From contig CALKXJ010000005.1 in the NCBI GenBank assembly GCA_938003835.1, positions 62,001 to 126,000 of the forward strand: DNA of 64,000 nt. The letters run 5' to 3'. Made by a program: the position numbers and the translations under genes. This document shows positions 12,455 to 20,890 of the stretch, piece after piece. Source of the stretch: an uncultured Bryobacteraceae bacterium. Lineage in GTDB: Bacteria; Acidobacteriota; Terriglobia; Bryobacterales; Bryobacteraceae. Positions within the stretch are counted from its first letter, which is position 1; every line of letters begins with the position of its first letter. Below the pieces are notes generated by a model. It made no database searches and was not told the DNA's origin. It worked only from the letters and a program-made list of their open reading frames with translations.

Positions 12455-13351
12455 ATGCCCGCCCTTTGGCTGGCGCTGGCGCTTCTGGGAGGCGGGCCGC
12501 CCGAGGTTAACCTCTCCGCCATCCTCGACCGGGTTTCCGAGGAGGCGGAGGCCTTTCTCAACCTGGCTCCCAGGATCATCGGGACCGAGACGTGGCACCA
12601 GCGCGTGCAGAAGCCCGCCAGACGCTTGCGGCTGCGTGTCGGCAAGAGCGCTCTGGAGCGGCCCGCCGCCCGGATCGAGGAACGGAGAATCGTATCCGAA
12701 TACGGCTTTGGCGAGTTCAAGGACTCCCCGGGCAGACTGCACGAGCTTCGCACGGTCGTCTCGGTTGACGGCCGCCCGGTGGCCGGGCAGGCGGAGGCGC
12801 GCCAGAGCCTGGCACTCGGGCTCAGCTCCGACGACGACCGGCAAAAGCGGCGCATGCTGAGCCAGTTTCAGAGGTACGGCCTCGCGGCGGCGGCCGTGGA
12901 TTTCGGACAACTTATTTTGCTGTTCACGCGGCGGGCGCTGGACTCTTACGAGTTCGAAATCCTGGGCGAGCGCCGCCTGGGGCCGCACGCGGCGCTGGCC
13001 CTGGCTTACCGGCAACGGCAGGGAGAGGCCGCCTTCACGATTTTCGAAGGCAACCGGACCCATCGAGTGCCACTCCAGGGCGAGCTCTGGGTGCGCCAGG
13101 GCGACCCCACCCCGCTGCGGATTTCGCTTCAGGCGGCCTTCCACGACGGCAAACATCAGATCGAGCACCGGGCCAGTGTCGAATATTTTGCAAGTGCCTA
13201 CGGGCTGGTGCTGCCAGCCTCCGTTCACTATCAGAAGCTGGCCGACGGCGAGCCCATTGTCGAGCATCTGGCCACCTACAGCGACTTCCGGATGTTCAAG
13301 GCAGACACGGAGATACGCTTCGAGGCAGCACCGGCCCGGCCGGTTCCGTAG
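12455..13351 (+). CDS. Hypothetical secreted protein
   Basis: 298 residues with a short hydrophobic N-terminus (MPALWLALALLGGG) that could be a signal peptide, preceded by a GGAG ribosome binding site. The rest is a soluble alpha/beta protein with no motif that I recognise. Sequences such as GELWVRQGDPTPLRI and HRASVEYFASAYGLVLPAS suggest a beta-rich fold resembling outer-membrane-lipoprotein-sorting-like proteins, but this is only an impression. It lies 29 bases after the methyltransferase gene on the same strand and may be co-transcribed. A strong hairpin follows it at 13369-13392. Confidence 0.6.
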   Translation: MPALWLALALLGGGPPEVNLSAILDRVSEEAEAFLNLAPRIIGTETWHQRVQKPARRLRLRVGKSALERPAARIEERRIVSEYGFGEFKDSPGRLHELRTVVSVDGRPVAGQAEARQSLALGLSSDDDRQKRRMLSQFQRYGLAAAAVDFGQLILLFTRRALDSYEFEILGERRLGPHAALALAYRQRQGEAAFTIFEGNRTHRVPLQGELWVRQGDPTPLRISLQAAFHDGKHQIEHRASVEYFASAYGLVLPASVHYQKLADGEPIVEHLATYSDFRMFKADTEIRFEAAPARPVP

Positions 13352-13540: not shown

Positions 13541-14809
13541 ATGGGTGCCATGATGTCGGAGCGGTCGAACAGTCAGCATCCGGAGACGAATCCGAAGGTA
13601 GCGCGTCAGGAGAGGGGCGCGCCCGAGTTTCTTGCGTTCCCGCAATCGAAGCCCTGGTTGTTCAGCTTCTTTGCCAACCTGAAGGAGTTCTTTTTTCCTC
13701 CCAACGAGCCGCCGCTGGTAATCACTTCGCGGCCGGTTTCCCCGAAGGAGTTGGGCGCGGGAGCCTTTATCTACTCGCCGAACCTCGACGCGGAGAGCTC
13801 CGGATCCAGCCCGCGGCGGAGTTCCGCCTTCCAGCCCGGCGTCTCGGTGGATAGCGACCACCTGGCGCGGCTGGCCGCGACCGGCACGGAGGTGCCCTGG
13901 TACGTCGAGTTTTACGAGAACGTACGGGACTACTTCTTCGCGCCAAAACTGCCGCCGCTCGAAGTGACATCCAAGCCGGTTCAGGTCAAGAGCATCTGGG
14001 GCTTTTCTTCCGGCTACCAGAAACGGGCCGGCCTGATCACGGCGAGCCTCCACGTCGGCGCGGTGGCGATCCTGTTCCTGCTGGGCTCCAGCCACATCAT
14101 CAAAGAGGAGCCGAAAGTCGCCGTTACGCTCATTGCGCCGGACATCGACATCGCCCCATATGTGCCGAAGGTGCCCAAACCCAAAGAGATGGGCGGCGGA
14201 GGGGGCGGCGGCGACCGCTCTCCGACGCCTCCGAGCAAGGGCCAGTTGCCCAGGGCGGACGTGCGGCAGTTCGTGCCGCCTGCGGCGGTGGTGTACAATC
14301 CCGCCCCCAAGCTCGTGATGGAGCCGACCATCGTCGTTCCGCCGGAAGTGCCGCTTCCGAAGGTGAACATAAACGCCTGGGGTGACCCGCTTGCCAAAAT
14401 TGGCCCCCCGTCGAGCGGCCCGGGATCCGGCGGCGGCATCGGCACCGGTTCGGGTGGAGGCGTTGGCTCGGGTCGCGGCCCGGGCTTCGGGCCCGGCGAA
14501 GGCGGGGGCGTCGGCGGCGGCGTCTACCGGATCGGCGGCGGCGTGACAGCCCCCACTCTGATCCATAAAGTCGAGCCGGAGTACTCGGAAGAGGCCCGCA
14601 AGGCCAAGTTCCAGGGCACTGTCGTCCTCTACGTCGTGGTGGATGAGAAAGGAATGCCCAGGGACATCCGTGTCGTCAAGCCGCTCGGCCTCGGCCTGGA
14701 CGAGAAAGCGGTCGAGGCAGTCGAGAAGTGGCGGTTCCGGCCCGGCTACCTCAATGGCAAAGCCGTCGCGGTGGCCGCGACGGTCGAGGTGAACTTCCGC
14801 CTCCTGTAG
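13541..14809 (+). CDS. TonB family protein with duplicated N-terminal cytoplasmic motif
   Basis: 422 residues. The C-terminal 80 residues are a TonB domain (TLIHKVEPEYSEEARKAKF, VVLYVVVDEKG, AVEKWRFRPGYLNGK), which transmits energy to outer membrane receptors. A single transmembrane helix lies at about 164-183, unusually far from the N-terminus, and is followed by a Gly- and Pro-rich periplasmic spacer (GGGGGGGDRS and GSGGGIGTGSGGG runs). The cytoplasmic N-terminus holds two copies of the pattern PWxxxFxxNxxxxFFxPxxPPLxxTSxPVxxK (38-70 and 119-151). The start is ATG 13541; ATG 13550, 13553 and GTG 13424 are also in frame. GTG 13424 would begin upstream of the inverted repeats. It has no ExbB/ExbD partner here; those lie at 18321-20064. 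Confidence 0.85.
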   Translation: MGAMMSERSNSQHPETNPKVARQERGAPEFLAFPQSKPWLFSFFANLKEFFFPPNEPPLVITSRPVSPKELGAGAFIYSPNLDAESSGSSPRRSSAFQPGVSVDSDHLARLAATGTEVPWYVEFYENVRDYFFAPKLPPLEVTSKPVQVKSIWGFSSGYQKRAGLITASLHVGAVAILFLLGSSHIIKEEPKVAVTLIAPDIDIAPYVPKVPKPKEMGGGGGGGDRSPTPPSKGQLPRADVRQFVPPAAVVYNPAPKLVMEPTIVVPPEVPLPKVNINAWGDPLAKIGPPSSGPGSGGGIGTGSGGGVGSGRGPGFGPGEGGGVGGGVYRIGGGVTAPTLIHKVEPEYSEEARKAKFQGTVVLYVVVDEKGMPRDIRVVKPLGLGLDEKAVEAVEKWRFRPGYLNGKAVAVAATVEVNFRLL

Positions 14810-19329: not shown

Positions 19330-20064
19330 TTAACCCTTGGCCGCGGCCCGCTGGGTCCGCTTCAGGAAGTAGTCGATCAGCTCGGAGCTGGAGTTGCTCA
19401 TCTCGACGTCGAGGCCTTCCAGCTTGGTGGTGAAGTAGTTGTAGGCCCACACCGCCGGGATGGCCACGAACAGGCCGATAGCCGTCGCCACCAGCGCCTC
19501 GGAGATGCCACCCGCCACGGCGCCCAAACCAGTGGACTTCTCCGTCGAGATGCCCTTGAACGCGTTGATGATTCCCACCACGGTGCCGAACAGCCCGACG
19601 AACGGGGCCGACGCTCCGATCGTCGCCAGCGCCGCTACGCCCCGTTTCAGCTCGGCGTGGGTGATCGCCTCAGCCCGCTCCAGCGCGCGGCGGGAGGCCT
19701 CGATCTCTTCGCCGGGGATGTCGGCGCTCGACTCGTGGGCCTTAAACTCTTGAAGCCCGGCCACGACTACTTTCGCCAAGTGGCTCTTCTTGTACCGGTC
19801 GGCGATCTTGATCGCCTCGTCGAGTTTGCCATCCCGCAACGCGCCGGCCACGGCCGGCGCGAACAGCCGCGACTGTTTGCGCGCGGCGCTAAAGGCGAGC
19901 GCGCGGTCGATCATCACGCCGATCGAATAGGCCGACATGAGGAAGAGCAAGATCACGACGATCTTGGCCGCGATACCCATCTGGGCCCACATCGAGCGGA
20001 TGTCGAAGCCCACGGCCCCGCCTGCCTGAAGCATCAAGGCCCAAACCTGCAATTGTAGAAGCAT
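19330..20064 (-). CDS. exbB: ExbB/TolQ/MotA family proton channel protein
   Basis: 244 residues with three predicted transmembrane helices: KIVVILLFLMSAYSIGVMI (about 33-52), and two close to the C-terminus, IGASAPFVGLFGTVVGIINAF and the following ALVATAIGLFVAIPAVWAYN, that carry the family signature GLFGTVxGI. This is the inner membrane scaffold around the ExbD dimer. It follows tonB by 61 bases and precedes exbD. A glycine-poor N-terminal helix and a cytoplasmic helical loop rich in Lys and Glu are typical. Confidence 0.93.
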   Translation of the reverse strand: MLLQLQVWALMLQAGGAVGFDIRSMWAQMGIAAKIVVILLFLMSAYSIGVMIDRALAFSAARKQSRLFAPAVAGALRDGKLDEAIKIADRYKKSHLAKVVVAGLQEFKAHESSADIPGEEIEASRRALERAEAITHAELKRGVAALATIGASAPFVGLFGTVVGIINAFKGISTEKSTGLGAVAGGISEALVATAIGLFVAIPAVWAYNYFTTKLEGLDVEMSNSSSELIDYFLKRTQRAAAKG

Positions 20065-20125: not shown

Positions 20126-20890
20126 TCAGCCGCTCAGGGTGAAGTTCACGTCAATCTGCGTGACGACTTCCACCGGTTCCCCGTTGAGCAGCGTCGGCTT
20201 GTAAACCCACTGTTTCACCGCTTCGGTGGCCGCCGGAATCAGCAGCGGATGGCCGCTGACGACCGTGAGGTTCTCGATCCGGCCGTCCTTGCCGATGATG
20301 GCGTTGAAGCGGACCGTGCCCTGAATCCGCGCCTGCCGCGCCAGCGGCGGATAGACCGGCTTGGGCTGGTGGATCAGGCGCGCCGCCTGTACGTTGCCGC
20401 CCACCCGGATCCGCTGCACCGGCTTCGGCTTCTCCTTCTCCTTGACCGGAGGCGGAGGGGGAGGCGGCGGGGCCGCCGTCGGCACCGAGCCGATGATGCC
20501 GCCGATCACTCCGCCGGCCGCGCCGCCCGGCACGCCGCCGGGCACACCACCGATCACGCCTACCGCGCCGGTCACCGGCGGAAGCTCATCCTCTTCGATC
20601 TTGGCGATCTCCTTGGGAATCTCCCGCGGCGCCATCAGCTTACCGGCGTCGAACTGCCTCGGGATCACTTTGACGACCTTGACCGGAGCAGCCGCCGGCG
20701 GGGGAGGCGGAGGCGGTGGCGGCGGAGGCGCCACCAGGAAACTGGTCAACTGCGTCGAGGGCAGCGTGTCGAAGTAGATCATCGGGATGAGGATCATCAC
20801 CCCGACGAGCAGACACTGCCCGAGGAAGGAAACCAGGACCGTCCAGGTTTTCCTTGTCTTGCCTTGTTCGACGAATACGCTTTCGAACAT
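20126..20890 (-). CDS. tonB: TonB energy transducer
   Basis: 254 residues: short cytoplasmic N-terminus, a transmembrane helix at about 19-38 (TVLVSFLGQCLLVGVMILI), a periplasmic proline-rich spacer with one run of about 11 prolines and one of about 8, a Gly/Val-rich stretch, and a C-terminal TonB domain (LIHQPKPVYPPLARQARIQG, VRFNAIIGKDG, AVKQWVYKPTLLNGEPV). First gene of the operon, upstream of exbB. The long polyproline run presumably keeps the arm extended across the periplasm. Compared with the TonB at 13541-14809 it has the normal N-terminal anchor. Confidence 0.9.
   Translation of the reverse strand: MFESVFVEQGKTRKTWTVLVSFLGQCLLVGVMILIPMIYFDTLPSTQLTSFLVAPPPPPPPPPPPAAAPVKVVKVIPRQFDAGKLMAPREIPKEIAKIEEDELPPVTGAVGVIGGVPGGVPGGAAGGVIGGIIGSVPTAAPPPPPPPPVKEKEKPKPVQRIRVGGNVQAARLIHQPKPVYPPLARQARIQGTVRFNAIIGKDGRIENLTVVSGHPLLIPAATEAVKQWVYKPTLLNGEPVEVVTQIDVNFTLSG

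Follow-up and report, generated by a model that had tools for sequence, protein, structure and literature searches.

A conserved, repeatable cytoplasmic module in a group of Terriglobia TonB proteins

A TonB gene with two module copies

The window analysed here is a stretch of 64,000 nucleotides from the genome of an uncultured Bryobacteraceae bacterium. One of its open reading frames, given with correct coordinates and frame in the initial annotation, encodes 422 residues and has no internal stop (Table 1). Its assignment as TonB was borne out by a Pfam match to TonB_C, and as a protein it is a TonB. Nothing besides TonB_C was found in a Pfam scan at E values up to 1, and a sequence search of the PDB matched TonB chains. 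Translation probably begins at the ATG of residue 5, because orthologue L104 begins MSERL where the window protein has MSERS, and because M5 is nearly invariant in an alignment (A4) of the window protein with 77 of 82 relative proteins (78 sequences).

The most hydrophobic 19-residue stretch of the protein coincides with the transmembrane helix of the AlphaFold2 model. Model and hydrophobicity thus agree on one transmembrane helix ahead of the periplasmic part, as is characteristic of the TonB family, leaving about 155 residues in the cytoplasm. SHLS is a named motif of the TonB transmembrane helix, according to PMC12204202. With the spacing taken from the E. coli sequence, its positions are occupied by T167, H171, L178, and G182 in the window protein; over the 78 sequences, serine at 167 and histidine at 171 have frequencies of 0.97 and 0.91. 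The glycine stretches of the periplasmic span are nearly invariant over the same sequences, with conservation equal to that of TonB_C.

Table 1. Features of the module TonB gene and of a second TonB locus in the window.
Feature	Position	Strand	Details
TonB protein with two cytoplasmic modules	13541..14809	+	422 aa; translation; TonB_C; probable start 13553
Module copy 1 (upstream)	13652..13753	+	residues 38-71; motif alignment, profile match, model helix 39-51
Short helix DxHLxRL ahead of copy 2	13853..13876	+	residues 105-112; alignment, model, conservation (L108 0.92)
Module copy 2, membrane-proximal, common to relatives	13895..13996	+	residues 119-152; alignments, profile, model helix 120-132
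Transmembrane helix	14018..14086	+	residues 160-182; AlphaFold2 model
Periplasmic span, glycine-rich stretches instead of proline-rich linker	14192..14545	+	residues 218-237, 291-335
TonB_C domain	14573..14803	+	residues 345-421; Pfam, 70 bits (cut-off 24.6)
ExbB-like protein adjoining second TonB	19330..20064	-	PF01618, 120.8 bits at G000:C5:81399-81788
Second TonB, short N-terminus, without module	20126..20890	-	no A5 match

A 33-residue motif (PWxxxFxxNxxxxFFxPxxPPLxxTSxPVxxK) had been reported twice in the cytoplasmic part, at residues 38-70 and 119-151. Both copies are present, with 15 of 33 positions identical. Taken as 34-residue units, they read PWLFSFFANLKEFFFPPNEPPLVITSRPVSPKEL (residues 38-71) and PWYVEFYENVRDYFFAPKLPPLEVTSKPVQVKSI (residues 119-152), with 15 identities. 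The unit is longer at copy 2, where the DxHLxRL helix stands in front of it. Both copies precede the transmembrane helix, as had been stated; the helix boundaries given then were 164-183, compared with 160-182 in the model.

The two halves of the protein align with an E value of 4e-11. Between them, the best ungapped 34-residue score was 99, compared with a mean of 11.8 (standard deviation 6.2, maximum 37) in 400 shuffles. A profile of 66 single-copy relatives, from which the window was excluded, matched the window protein at residues 31-71 (43.7 bits) and 106-160 (87.3 bits). The shuffles and this window-free profile rule out a chance resemblance of the copies. At the DNA level the copies are 57% identical, and 41% identical at third positions, so the duplication is old. 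We also searched the organism's own genome with A5, a profile of 34 diverse module copies that includes copy 1 of the window protein. The matches, at E values of 9.6e-19 and, for copy 1, 1.5e-14, both lie in the window TonB, and no other protein of this genome contained the module by this profile (next match E 0.58). The genome has four TonB_C matches.

AlphaFold2, run on the 78 sequences, predicted helices at residues 39-51, 105-112, 120-132, and 160-182 together with a well-predicted TonB_C domain. The block at copy 2 (helix 120-132) had a pLDDT of 84-92. The PPL..TSKPV tails had no secondary structure in the model and a pLDDT of about 55. Structure prediction, which the initial annotation had proposed, therefore gave a helix for the first half of the repeat and no secondary structure for its conserved second half. 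The first 230 residues of a relative with three copies were also modelled and contained one helix per copy (42-58, 94-106, and 141-153). Because pTM was 0.31 for the window protein and 0.26 for this relative, the arrangement of the parts was not read from the models.

Conservation, copy number, and distribution of the module

The module combines two elements: a short amphipathic helix, PWxxSLxxNxKD, and behind it an extended peptide that is nearly invariant, PPKLPPLxVTSKPVxVK. In the TonBs that we inspected, the last copy lies directly before the transmembrane helix and extra copies lie upstream. As the measure of conservation over the 78 sequences we took the share of the commonest residue, averaged by region: 0.86 for the tail (residues 134-152), 0.82 for TonB_C, 0.55 for the transmembrane helix, 0.52 for the module helix, and 0.49 for the stretch preceding it. 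The module helix keeps its pattern over its letters. Among the 70 helices that could be parsed from the 78 sequences, the mean hydrophobic-moment z was 2.26, 80% exceeded 1.5, and the net charge was about +0.8. Taken singly, the window's own two helices were not significant for hydrophobic moment (p 0.10 and 0.11).

L151, L162, and L170 are three closely related three-copy proteins; among them, dN was 0.070, 0.075, and 0.067 for the copies (dS 0.92, 1.38, and 0.64), 0.28 and 0.22 for the linkers, 0.41 for the N-terminus, and 0.017 for TonB_C. Six three-copy proteins that are more distant had identities of 0.71 in copy 1 and 0.61 in copy 2, versus 0.66 in the first linker. For the window protein with L104 and L105, identity was 0.50 in copy 1, 0.47 in the linker, and 0.64 in copy 2. 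Upstream copies retain a PPL..TSRP core. The proximal copy is the constrained one, and the window's upstream copy is weakly constrained.

Relatives were collected by a search with a full-length alignment (A3), from which we kept the best 80 of 473 in named genomes. These come mostly from Bryobacteraceae, Bryobacterales, Terriglobia, and Acidobacteria metagenome-assembled genomes; two titled Acidimicrobiia and Arcobacter are probably mislabelled. Looking for the motif in orthologues had been set as a test of the repeat, and it is conserved: all 80 of these loci (best 80 of 473) contain it. Neither outcome named beforehand as speaking against the repeat, its absence from orthologues or predicted disorder with no conservation, was thus obtained. 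A profile built from the two window copies alone matched 49 of 61 relatives at E values up to 0.1. TonB_C was found in all 78 members of A4.

Two of the loci contain tandem pairs, giving 82 relative proteins; 66 have one copy, four have two, and 12 have three, counts that lean towards the window's kin because the best 80 of 473 relatives were kept. The 594-residue TonB L084 has four module matches. On a quick tree of the periplasmic columns, in which 17 of 75 inner branches are starred, copy number needs five changes, compared with a mean of 16.1 after shuffling. Copy number has therefore changed more than once, gain and loss being indistinguishable. The window protein groups with the two-copy proteins L104 and L105, within a set of ten whose branching is poorly resolved, and most three-copy proteins fall in another group. 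The duplication that had been noted in this gene is real, and it is the minority state. Similarly, a long cytoplasmic tail is unusual for TonB proteins in general, as had been noted (a cytoplasmic domain is generally absent from them, according to PMC8262864), but it is normal in this TonB group and is not specific to the gene.

We then surveyed sampled genomes within the phylum Acidobacteriota, each sample being drawn from a larger group. The searches scored 16 (A2, a longer profile), 18 (TonB_C), or 26 (A5) candidates per genome, so that genome counts are lower bounds. Using A5 at E values up to 0.001, the module was detected in at least 214 of 299 genomes of the class Terriglobia, among them 64 of the 67 from the window's family. 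The other 85 had no A5 match, though all 299 have TonB_C. The module occurs one to four times per genome in the 214 positive genomes and TonB_C from four to at least 18 times per genome in the 299; the module therefore marks particular TonBs among many. Across the phylum, 31 of 297 genomes contained the module at E values up to 1e-6; all 31 belong to the window's class, and none of the 297 showed it outside the class at this threshold. With A2 at E values up to 0.01, 48 of 396 phylum genomes matched. Among these, three genomes are from outside the class; their matches (E 3.1e-5 to 0.0025) fall in open frames of just 43 to 79 residues, and we took them for chance.

Some TonBs of the collection carry other N-terminal elements. 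In the second gene of one tandem TonB pair (L051:952-2091, the same as L157:7674-8813), a zf-HC2 domain precedes the module (22.8 bits, cut-off 22.2); Pfam assigns TonB_C to this protein. The zf-HC2 zinc finger is of a type known from anti-sigma factors. Two further TonBs (L099:755-1786 and L101:1138-2229) share a different recurring stretch before the module (I/F-x-F-D/E-x-L-L-D...N-P-E-P), for which Pfam gave no match. In a second, longer TonB type of 543 and 600 residues (L086:725-2353 and L087:922-2721), a single helix weakly resembling the module precedes the transmembrane helix.

The module in a protein without a TonB domain

Two loci, L085 and L184, encode a protein of three modules that lacks TonB_C. 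At least one genome, the source of L056 and L085, encodes this protein together with a module TonB. An alignment of the two was searched against 150 genomes of another family, possibly Acidobacteriaceae. A near-full-length match was obtained in 35 genomes (202 to 469 bits); 60 of the 150 matched at all, the remainder through other proteins or pieces. We aligned 30 of the 35 full-length proteins, with starts chosen by hand, which left three rows without copy 1. Conservation in these 30 members was 0.77, 0.90, and 0.72 for the three modules and 0.41 for the linker that follows. The last 25 residues form a hydrophobic segment after a basic stretch (conservation 0.51), and, judging from its make-up, this C-terminal segment probably anchors the protein in the membrane. 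Members of the family (L208-L237, L085, and L184) also have a conserved WSSVIxxPK stretch and a variable linker before the hydrophobic segment. Of the 35 proteins, 12 were scanned against Pfam, in part as matched stretches rather than whole frames, and none had a match; NCBIfam gave none in two. No gene was a constant neighbour in 21 stretches around the three-module gene, the commonest neighbour cluster occurring in six.

The module TonB likewise had no constant neighbour in the 80 loci and the window. In these 81 stretches, a cluster that we read as RelA/SpoT-like occurred in at least 26, the cluster of the gene upstream of the window TonB in at least 20, and ExbB-like genes in at least 14; these are lower bounds, with many loci ending at contig ends. 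The upstream gene itself (12455-13351, + strand) has no Pfam or NCBIfam match.

Proposed function and comparison with known systems

The same module is found in a second, separate membrane protein, so its role is probably to dock to a component of the cell interior. The initial annotation had suggested that the repeat could dock another protein or regulate the transducer, and this is plausible. We give about an even chance to the reading that the repeat is a conserved, membrane-proximal cytoplasmic docking module of a TonB group in Terriglobia, placed by its helix, recognised by a partner, and shared with the three-module protein. The amphipathic helix would position the element against the membrane's inner face, where the extended peptide would be recognised by a partner protein. 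Tandem copies would provide several sites on one TonB and raise avidity, and the three-module protein would use the same partner or compete for it. The existence of the module, its place, conservation, copy number, and range, and its use outside TonB are observed directly; we infer that the module binds a protein, that its copies act by avidity, and that TonB is thereby placed or regulated. Docking is supported by the conservation of the tail (0.86), by the pattern-conserved amphipathic helix, by the presence of the module in 64 of 67 family genomes and at least 214 of 299 class genomes, by the position of the last copy beside the transmembrane helix, by at least five changes in copy number, by the low dN of all copies in the closest trio, and by the three-module family without TonB. 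Counting against it are the lack of a constant gene neighbour in the stretches surveyed, the tail pLDDT of about 55, the weakly constrained upstream copies, the 85 of 299 genomes without a match, and the mostly single-copy relatives.

A more specific form of the proposal is tentative, and we hold it to be somewhat doubtful. In it, the module is a previously undescribed multivalent docking element of the class that links TonB, as force transducer, to a partner in the cytoplasm or the inner membrane, and the free, membrane-anchored three-module protein is a scaffold or competitor for that partner. The Ton system would then receive a cytoplasmic input tuned by copy number.

Could the module grip the Ton motor itself? 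The transmembrane helix of TonB packs against ExbB near the cytoplasmic leaflet, as described in PMC9008036 and PMC9022066, and the module adjoins this helix, which makes ExbB a candidate partner. Successive copies might engage the cytoplasmic parts of neighbouring subunits of the ExbB pentamer, or might select an ExbB paralogue; the genome encodes four MotA_ExbB-family proteins, so that a specificity element would make sense. However, the TonB of the window that does adjoin an ExbB has no module, the three-module protein lacks a TonB domain and has its hydrophobic segment far from its modules, and an ExbB-like gene lay nearby in few of the 81 stretches (at least 14). We regard this reading as unlikely.

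That the module is a membrane-surface anchor or spacer, its helices lying flat against the inner leaflet and fixing the TonB tail there with no partner protein, is quite improbable in our estimate. The helix pattern is conserved above its letters, the helices are slightly positive, have a tryptophan at their start, and lie close to the membrane, and 60% of the 70 exceed a lipid-binding threshold. Yet conservation peaks in the polar extended tail (0.86 versus 0.52 for the helix), for which a plain anchor would have no use; taken one by one, the window's two helices are not significant, and in the three-module family the helix and tail of the middle copy together reach a conservation of 0.90. 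Docking fits better than a plain anchor because a nearly invariant, partly polar peptide is combined with a pattern-conserved helix in an element that lies at the inner face, is repeatable, and is reused without TonB. It is least probable that only the proximal copy works and that upstream copies, including the window's first, are no more than relics or neutral spacers that repeat expansion left behind: 66 of 82 relatives do have one copy, and copy 1 in the window's lineage and upstream copies in the wider set are about as variable as linkers, but all three copies evolve at a dN of about 0.07 in the closest trio, upstream copies keep their core, and the three-module family retains its copies.

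That at least 214 of 299 class genomes encode this conserved, repeatable cytoplasmic element suggests that something on the inner side matters to the module TonB. The membrane protein that carries it without TonB could serve as another bait when the partner is sought.

No known domain accounted for the module in Pfam, NCBIfam, or PDB sequence searches, the sole PDB row having an E value of 0.63. The module has no model in Pfam or NCBIfam, among the models scanned. A search of the open-licence PMC literature for cytoplasmic modules in Acidobacteria TonB yielded no paper, and a repeated cytoplasmic TonB module is not described in the accessible parts of PMC12204202, PMC11658791, PMC9008036, PMC3169522, PMC12288465, PMC8262864, PMC3174227, PMC9022066, PMC3602595, or PMC8597729.

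Like canonical TonB of the E. coli type, the transducer that works with ExbB-ExbD and an outer-membrane receptor and passes energy from the inner membrane to the outer one, the window protein has one transmembrane helix before TonB_C. It differs in its long cytoplasmic part with repeated modules and in a periplasmic span that is glycine-rich rather than proline-rich. The Ton motor is usually described as acting from the inner membrane outward. The nearest proteins in kind are TonB-like proteins with cytosolic parts, namely GltG, GltJ, and SjdR. GltJ/AgmX of Myxococcus has a zinc ribbon and a GYF domain. It resembles the window TonB as an envelope-spanning protein that meets a cytoplasmic regulator, being listed as an effector of MglA in PMC12288465. 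In contrast, the two share no cytosolic Pfam domain, and the AgmX/PglI C-terminal model (NF033768) scored below its cut-off against the window TonB (11.7 bits, cut-off 40, E 0.21). SjdR of Anabaena, also TonB-like, exposes an N-terminal part of about 65 residues to the cytosol according to PMC8262864, but its own C-terminal domain is incomplete. Anabaena TonB2 to TonB4 are drawn with a cytosolic region in PMC8597729. GltG/PglI of Myxococcus gliding combines a cytosolic FHA domain with TonB_C, according to PMC3169522, and is thus, like the window protein, a bitopic TonB_C protein with a cytosolic element. The window TonB has no FHA domain (Pfam, E up to 1), and its cytosolic part is made of short modules. 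By analogy, a cytosolic element of the GltG/PglI kind may tie a force transducer to the inside of the cell.
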